Shown here piece by piece: positions 7,166-8,615 of a DNA stretch of 9,356 nucleotides. The position numbers and the translations under genes were made by a program. Origin of the DNA: Deltaproteobacteria bacterium (GTDB taxonomy: Bacteria > JAUYMQ01); assembly GCA_030698575.1 (NCBI GenBank), contig JAUYMQ010000544.1:1-9356 (forward strand), in the 5' to 3' direction. Each line of letters opens with the position of its first letter. The first letter of the stretch is position 1. Below the pieces are notes generated by a model. It did no database searches. It saw only the letters and a list, made by a program, of their open reading frames with translations, and was not told the origin of the DNA.

Positions 7166-7585
7166 TTACGCCTCAGCCCTGGTCAACGTCCCGTCACCCA
7201 TGAACGTCACGCTCGTCGTCGCCAGTTCCCCGACCGCGCCGAGGAACGGATAGGAGAACAATCTCACATTGCCGGTGAACGACGGGTTGCTCGCCCCGAC
7301 CCCGGCACTTGTGGGGAAGATGACAGCCGATACCGCCGATGCCGCGCCGATCATCGCGAACAGGTTGTCGTTCACGTCGTCGTCGGCGAAGTCGTCGGCG
7401 AGTTCGACGGTGATCGTGAAGTCCTTGAGCCCCGGCAGGCGCTTTTTGACAAGCTCTTGCATGCCCGTGACCTCGACTTCCTCCGCGGAGTATTCGATGG
7501 TGATGGACCGGACATGGTCGCTCCAATCGTCGGAGTCGAGTACGAAATCAGCGTCGGTGAGAATTATCTTAGCGATGGGAACCAC
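7166..7585 (-). CDS. Major tail tube protein (second of two paralogues)
   Basis: The product is 139 residues from GTG 7585, or 136 if translation begins at ATC 7576. ATC 7576 is 8 nt behind AGGAAG, while GTG 7585 overlaps that site, so ATC fits better; the N-terminus would then be MAKIILTDADFVLD. Key segments are DWSDHVRSITIEYSAEEVEV, KKRLPGLKDFTITVEL, DDFADDDVNDNLFAMIGA, FPTSAGVGASNPSFTGN and GAVGELATTSVTFMGDG. This arrangement (SxHV, YSAE-x-x-EVT, LPGLKDxxxTVE, ASNPxxTG, LATTSVTF) is the one I know from small phage tail tube proteins. Subunits would stack as hexameric rings around the tape measure. It follows the first tube-like gene but is separated from it by a terminator, and it directly precedes the chaperones, the usual place for the main tube gene. 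Confidence 0.88.
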   Translation of the reverse strand: MVPIAKIILTDADFVLDSDDWSDHVRSITIEYSAEEVEVTGMQELVKKRLPGLKDFTITVELADDFADDDVNDNLFAMIGAASAVSAVIFPTSAGVGASNPSFTGNVRLFSYPFLGAVGELATTSVTFMGDGTLTRAEA

Positions 7586-7590
7586 TTCCT
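7585..7590 (-). promoter_or_regulatory. Shine-Dalgarno sequence favouring an ATC start for the tail tube gene
   Basis: AGGAAGTG matches the ideal AGGAGGTG at seven of eight bases. From AGGAAG there are 8 nt to ATC at 7576-7574. The annotated-type start GTG 7585-7583 begins within this element and so would have no usable spacing. Confidence 0.5.
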
Positions 7591-7608
7591 TTTCTGGTTG
7601 TAGGCATC

Positions 7609-7632
7609 AAAAAAGCCGCCCCAATTGGCGGC
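7609..7632 (-). terminator. Intrinsic transcription terminator
   Basis: Read on the minus strand, a perfect six-pair all-GC stem (GCCGCC / GGCGGC) with loop AATTGG is followed by six T. It lies 30 nt beyond the stop of the first tube-like gene and about 20 nt before the second. No convincing promoter is seen between it and the second gene, so some read-through is probably required for the chaperone and tape measure genes. Confidence 0.88.
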
Positions 7633-7661
7633 CGACCGTCGCGCTGTGCGGTTGTCTGGTG

Positions 7662-8384
7662 CTACACAATGCCCACGGATAGCAAAAACTCCACCTCGTT
7701 CCCCACCCCATCCACGGTAAACGAGCAGCGCCACCAGTCATCGGTAATCGCGCCGGCCAGCGACAAGAACTCCGATGTCGCCGCCGTTACAGTCGTGAAC
7801 GTGATGCGGGTGGTCGCGCTCGTGAAGTCGCTGTTGTCGTCGGACTCGACCGTTATCACCGCGGCGGGAGCACTCACCACAGAGAACACATGCAGCGCCG
7901 CATACACTTTCTGCGTCGCCGACACCGCACCCAATTGGCTTCCGGCCAGGCTAGCTCCCGTGTCGGTGTCCTCGTTCGCCAGGATCTCTCCGCGAGCCAC
8001 CCTGTCATTGCCCGCGAAGTCAACGGAGAACTTGAACGCTTCCCCGACAGCTGCGCCGGGAGCGTAGCGGTACGCGCCGACCTCGGTCAGGAACGCCACA
8101 TCTCCAATCGCATCGCCGTCGGGCGTCAACGTCAGTGGGGAGAGGGTGGAGCTGCCGATGCGGGTGAACAGTTGCGGGTCGATCAACCCCGTGCCGGCTT
8201 CATAATACCCCTCGTGCGCGCCGCGAACATCCAGCAGGCCGGGCAGGCGCTTGCGGGTTGTGTCCTGGAAAGCGGTGACGGGGACTTCATCCGCGGAATA
8301 GGTCAGCTCGTGTTTGCTGAATTGTCCGCCGAAGTCGTATTGGCTGATTTTGAGTCCGCAGTCGATCAGGATTAGCTTCGAGAT
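7662..8384 (-). CDS. Tail tube-like protein with C-terminal beta-rich extension (ATC start)
   Basis: The product is 240 residues from ATC 8384. The frame has no ATG, GTG or TTG between the upstream TAG (8390-8388) and TTG 8186, and TTG would remove the conserved N-domain. ATC 8384 is 8 nt behind AGGGGG. The N-terminus MSKLILIDCG aligns with MAKIILTDAD of the gene at 7585-7166. Both then carry YSA-[DE]-EV-x-VT-x2-Q and KRLPGL-x-D. Residues about 55-240 differ: YYEAGTGLIDPQLFTRIGSS, then strands ending in WWRCSFTVDGVGNEVEFLLS, which suggests a carbohydrate-binding or decoration-type sandwich. This could be a minor tube subunit, a tube terminator, or a tube protein with a surface domain. The paralogy is seen in the sequence; the role is inferred. 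Confidence 0.78.
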   Translation of the reverse strand: MSKLILIDCGLKISQYDFGGQFSKHELTYSADEVPVTAFQDTTRKRLPGLLDVRGAHEGYYEAGTGLIDPQLFTRIGSSTLSPLTLTPDGDAIGDVAFLTEVGAYRYAPGAAVGEAFKFSVDFAGNDRVARGEILANEDTDTGASLAGSQLGAVSATQKVYAALHVFSVVSAPAAVITVESDDNSDFTSATTRITFTTVTAATSEFLSLAGAITDDWWRCSFTVDGVGNEVEFLLSVGIV

Positions 8385-8387
8385 TTT

Positions 8388-8615
8388 CTACACCCCCTTG
8401 CTGTCTATGACTGCCCCGCATGCCTTGCACTGGAACTGCACGTTGCCCATCGTCGCCCCCGGCACAACTTGCCGTTGATGCTCCGGGTGGTCGCAATTCA
8501 CTTCCTCCGGCTCCGCTGCCTGCTCCACACCCAGGAGGGAGAGCGCGGCGTCGATGCTGGCGCGGGCCGCGATGAGCTGCGAGAGGATGATGTCGCGCTC
8601 CTGGTTGGGAGTCAC
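8388..8615 (-). CDS. Small zinc-ribbon-like phage protein
   Basis: The product is 75 residues from GTG 8615, which shares a GTGA overlap with the upstream stop; an upstream in-frame GTG (8633) would give 81 but ignores the coupling. Residues 1-35 form an amphipathic helix (NQERDIILSQLIAARASIDA). The C-terminal half has CDHPEH and, about 23 residues on, CKACG: a Cys/His set that could bind one zinc (C-x-H...C-x2-CG). Short proteins with a helix and then a C/H...C-x2-CG ribbon are frequent beside phage connector and tail genes, with no firmly known function. Expression is presumably coupled to its neighbour. No enzyme motif is visible. Confidence 0.8.
   Translation of the reverse strand: MTPNQERDIILSQLIAARASIDAALSLLGVEQAAEPEEVNCDHPEHQRQVVPGATMGNVQFQCKACGAVIDSKGV
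8393..8398 (-). promoter_or_regulatory. Shine-Dalgarno sequence placing an ATC start for the first tube-like gene
   Basis: AGGGGGTG differs from AGGAGGTG at one base and overlaps the end of the zinc-ribbon-like gene. Eight nt after AGGGGG comes ATC at 8384-8382. No standard start codon lies within reach in the conserved frame. Confidence 0.6.

Follow-up and report, generated by a model that had tools for sequence, protein, structure and literature searches.

Initiation at AUU, AUC, AUA and GUC is known to work in bacteria at a reduced rate, in an IF3-repressible manner and with extended Shine-Dalgarno (SD) sequences (PMC5472188; PMC13009471; PMC13068326). The start codon of infC in Streptomyces is ATC (PMC5472188), as is that of rnhC in Listeria (PMC13068326), while in Staphylococcus aureus cvfC1 begins at AUU and ccpN at AUA, both behind extended SDs (PMC13009471). 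In Streptomyces sigR the annotated GTG lies within the ribosome-binding site AGGAGGTG and the true start is a GTC three codons further on (PMC5472188). In phage genes, ribosomes are known to re-initiate close to a stop codon, and they do so less when IF3 is raised (PMC2268962). Here we describe a phage locus in which both tail tube genes quite probably use AUC initiation in place of an ancestral AUG, GUG or UUG, judging from their sequences and those of their homologues. An AUC start is of a known kind; its use in tail tube genes and its clustering are unusual.

The window, i.e. the whole stretch of 9,356 nucleotides that was analysed, is one entire contig (C62) of a fragmented deltaproteobacterial bin (4.13 Mb, 653 contigs, single assembly) and encodes the tail operon of a siphophage on its minus strand, to which all window features given below belong. 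A small gene (8615-8388) with a GTG start and a CxxC (zinc-ribbon-like) end, syntenic with its counterparts in the relatives L002 and L094, lies upstream of gene 1 (8384-7662, 240 aa, stop TAG 7664-7662), which encodes a tail tube protein with a C-terminal extra domain. The profile search matched most of this protein to the phrog_9522 major tail protein (E-value 2.4e-35), and its homologues were found at 80+ loci. Gene 2 (7576-7166, 136 aa) encodes the major tail tube protein, matched over most of its length to the phrog_4574 major tail protein (E-value 7.4e-18); against Pfam Phage_tail_2 its score stayed under the family cut-off. The gap between the two genes contains an intrinsic-terminator-like hairpin, GGCCGCCAATTGGGGCGGCT-TTTTT (7633-7614), at a place where the relative L001 has only ~18 nt between its tube genes. 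The tube genes directly precede the tail assembly chaperone (7118-6561, phrog_344 profile) and the tape measure identified by profile search (6301-1274, 1,675 aa), and the operon continues with a small gene (1277-909), after which comes a repeat-rich ORF, open at the contig end (896-3). Behind the end of the chaperone (6600-6528) lies a second frame in which no start of its own is evident, with the G-run GGGGGAA close by; a programmed frameshift, as usual for such a gene pair, is possible there. Another contig of the bin (C58; L071, 1-5408) carries a head module comprising small and large terminase, portal, protease and the start of the capsid gene, with ATG starts. This module and the tail operon probably belong to the same phage, because the tail's relatives carry related terminases.

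The original prediction placed the starts of both tube genes at ATC, 8 nt behind the core of an SD, at codons that align with each other. Both codons, ATC 8384 and ATC 7576, were confirmed, with AGGGGG and AGGAAG, respectively, ending 8 nt before them, and in the alignment of the paralogues (31% identity, E-value 7e-11) residue 1 falls on residue 1 without gaps. The start region of gene 1 reads AAGGGGGTG-TAGAAA-ATC(8384)-TCGAAGCTAATCCTG. The SD (8399-8391) matches AAGGAGGTG in 8/9 positions, is separated from the ATC (8384-8382) by the 6 nt of the spacer TAGAAA, and falls within the 3' end of the upstream gene; its duplex with the anti-SD (-11.8 kcal/mol) is at the strong 5% edge among gene 1 homologues. 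The TAG stop of the upstream gene (8390-8388) is in frame with gene 1 and ends 3 nt before the ATC, an arrangement that, as read from the sequence, is the geometry of termination-reinitiation and resembles the one in many relatives (e.g. TAA-TTG in L094). The first in-frame ATG, GTG or TTG of gene 1 is TTG 8186 at residue 67, as had been claimed, and according to the alignment a start there would remove the invariant residues T37, G49 and G59. In gene 2 the region reads AAGGAAGTG-GTTCCC-ATC(7576)-GCTAAGATAATT, with the start codon at 7576-7574 and the SD (7591-7583) again matching AAGGAGGTG in 8/9 positions across the spacer GTTCCC, and with a weaker duplex (-6.5 kcal/mol). For these energies the anti-SD was taken as standard; the 16S gene was searched for in the bin and not found. 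Both sites share the pattern AAGG(G/A)(G/A)GTG - 6 nt - ATC. At least 8/9 matches to AAGGAGGTG occur at four sites in the window (both strands), two of which belong to the tube genes and a third precedes the tape measure. Since such near-consensus SDs occur at ~0.19 per kb per strand and 3.0% of the codons in the bin ORFs are ATC, two SD-ATC pairs at homologous codons far exceed chance.

The comparison with homologues proposed in the original prediction was carried out on ~90 loci from IMG/VR, GTDB genomes and phage records, which yielded 117 distinct gene starts (61 for gene 1 and 56 for gene 2). ATG, GTG or TTG stands exactly in the ATC column in 106/117 cases (88 ATG, 11 TTG, 7 GTG), including 53/56 for gene 2; ten further homologues start at most two codons away, and one, L146, carries an insertion and has its ATG nine codons upstream of the column. 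The multiple alignments are gapless in this region, with ISKLILID and IAKIILTD of the window set against MAELVLTN and MSEIVLKD (both from L001), MAKLILKG and MAKIVLRD. None of the 117 distinct starts is ATC, all being canonical, and most of the homologues are only 30-49% identical to the window proteins; no relative above 49% identity over the tube proteins emerged when these, the tape measure and the two genes that follow it were used as queries. On this alignment both ATC codons occupy the ancestral start position of their genes. The original prediction regarded the ATC starts as inherited and used: the homologue column upholds the ancestral position, while inheritance of the ATC itself is contradicted by the 117 canonical starts. 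By this comparison the two ATCs are derived in the window lineage, after the duplication, and since the canonical state is found elsewhere in both paralogues, the change most likely occurred independently in the two genes, i.e. twice. Avoidance of CATG was considered as a driver of the G to C changes and rejected (37 CATG versus 36.5 expected).

The last ORF of the operon could be a third case. It follows the TAG at 911-909, after which 37 codons pass without a canonical start until GTG 797, which would truncate the first of its GG(S/T)DGTN repeats. An AGGAGG (910-905; duplex with the anti-SD -10.2) overlaps this stop and lies 8 nt upstream of the putative start ATT (896-894), from which the product would begin with MTVRNDQYLHGTG; ATT 902 is an alternative. 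The relative in L212 has the N-terminus MANIKVKDHDANARYLKATG, and the one in L211 has an ATG ~35 residues before the first repeat. We regard ATT 896 as the probable start, on a weaker case than that of the tube genes because there are two distant relatives only. If it holds, AUH codons would be found at three of the eight gene starts visible in the contig.

For gene 2, the sole canonical alternative is an in-frame GTG (7585-7583), three codons upstream of the ATC and inside the SD, which the original prediction did not mention. A gene 2 product starting there (MVPIAKIILTD) would leave AUC to gene 1 alone. The codon is canonical and in frame, and a few homologues begin two codons upstream of the ATC column; however, it belongs to the SD, at a distance of ~1 nt from AAGGA, and offset -3 is used as a start by 0/56 distinct gene 2 homologues. 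Moreover, the example of sigR demonstrates that a GTG so placed need not be the true start (PMC5472188). We consider this alternative unlikely, if plausible, and on account of the position of the GTG inside the SD, the lack of homologues at its offset and the sigR parallel, ATC 7576 is favoured as the start of gene 2, with less certainty than ATC 8384 for gene 1.

The remaining alternatives concern the reality of the codons or of the genes. A sequence or assembly error hiding true ATG codons could be suspected in a single assembly of a fragmented metagenome bin, the more so as the relatives carry a canonical codon in the start column. Such an error would nonetheless have to hit two start codons independently (three with ATT 896), while the 7,974 coding bases examined, in which 638 single substitutions could create a stop, contain neither a stop nor a frameshift. 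To our knowledge, C for G twice would also be untypical of a systematic error, and we find this explanation improbable. A decaying prophage, whose starts were lost by mutation and whose genes are silent, would agree with the deviating start codons and with the presence of the contig in a bacterial bin. Yet every ORF is open, including that of the 1,675-aa tape measure, the SDs are retained, and there are ~46 possible nonsense substitutions for each one that would destroy a start of the two tube genes (638 in the coding bases examined versus ~14), which makes decay highly improbable. Two start codons hit without any stop or frameshift argue against random error and decay alike. Finally, a fusion of gene 1 with the upstream gene by read-through of TAG 8390-8388 is scarcely credible: the upstream gene does share the frame and ends 3 nt before the ATC, but read-through cannot account for gene 2, located after the terminator-like hairpin, TAG is a real stop at which gene 1 itself ends where its homologues end, and in the relatives the two genes are separate, each with its own start.

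The best reading is AUC (and AUU) initiation aided by SD pairing, weakly folded leaders and, in gene 1, re-initiation. The predicted leader folding energies of the AUH genes are -10.6, -7.1 and -7.4 kcal/mol, compared to -25.1, -21.1, -10.6, -17.0 and -21.9 kcal/mol for five canonical genes, a small comparison of three starts with five. The anatomy and position of the sites, the lack of another start before residue 67 in gene 1 and the derived state of the codons are directly visible; from these we infer AUC initiation itself, its strength and its IF3 sensitivity. In a tailed phage (or prophage), AUC would have been substituted for AUG, GUG or UUG at the same place in both tube genes. The ordinary initiator tRNA (CAU anticodon) would pair with the first two bases of AUC, and the mismatch at the third could be tolerated if the 30S subunit is kept in place by the SD helix (AAGGGGGTG or AAGGAAGTG) together with a leader of weak folding. 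In gene 1 a strong SD and the re-initiation geometry come together, so that ribosomes terminating at the TAG of the upstream gene, 3 nt before the ATC, may re-initiate; the SD of gene 2 is weaker, and this gene is located downstream of the terminator-like hairpin (7633-7614). Initiation would be expected to be lower than at AUG and sensitive to IF3, and by analogy IF3 control of the tube genes is possible. The purposes suggested in the original prediction, limitation of tube protein or a response to IF3, would be in keeping with other AUU, AUC, AUA and GUC starts (PMC5472188; PMC13009471). A weak start for a many-copy protein is odd and counts against the AUC reading. We also speculate, although we think it rather unlikely, that the AUC, AUC and AUU starts of late structural genes represent a system of relaxed start choice in this phage lineage, in which synthesis would be kept low early and released late in infection as IF3 activity drops, or, in a variant, through a factor or an initiator tRNA that the phage encodes on the missing part of the genome.

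The rest of the bin gives some indications about the translation machinery. Among 313 ORFs from 80 sampled contigs, enrichment behind SD motifs is seen for ATG, GTG and TTG but not for ATC (some antisense ORFs are still included in this set), which implies a host without general use of ATC starts. One candidate for an ATC start (C12) turned out to be an antisense artefact. No tRNA genes were detected within the window, and no initiator-type tRNA with a GAU anticodon was seen among the best 30 of 42 tRNA hits in the bin, which have ordinary anticodons. The infC gene of the bin (L088, contig C76, 3466-3987) has no ATG, GTG or TTG before residue 31 and displays AGGAGG-5 nt-ATA, which suggests that it starts at AUA, a typical mark of IF3 autoregulation. 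Should this bin be the host, AUH initiation sensitive to IF3 is probably at work in it.

Gene finders mostly permit only ATG, GTG and TTG, and the N-termini of such genes are lost or misplaced as a result; gene 1 would lose 66 residues. If true, two or three AUH starts in a virion operon would mean that structural proteins needed in quantity can be made from weak start codons, and the locus would offer a naturally occurring case in which codon identity can be weighed against SD strength, re-initiation and IF3.

Among the known systems, infC resembles the tube genes in its AUH start behind a strong SD, but it encodes an autoregulated fidelity factor, whereas the tube genes encode structural proteins of a phage, for which no feedback is known. 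sigR shares the layout of gene 2, with a GTG inside an extended SD three codons before the non-canonical start; it differs in using GTC rather than ATC, in its demonstrated repression by IF3, and in being a regulatory gene whose start is conserved across the genus. rnhC, cvfC1 and ccpN also have AUH starts, with extended SDs in the staphylococcal pair, but they are single cellular genes, while here two or three such starts occur in one phage operon. The closest likeness in gene order, sequence and the N-terminal motif M(A/S)K(L/I)(V/I)L is to the siphophage tail pairs of phrog_4574 and phrog_9522, from which the tube genes of the window differ in that the relatives examined all start with ATG, GTG or TTG.
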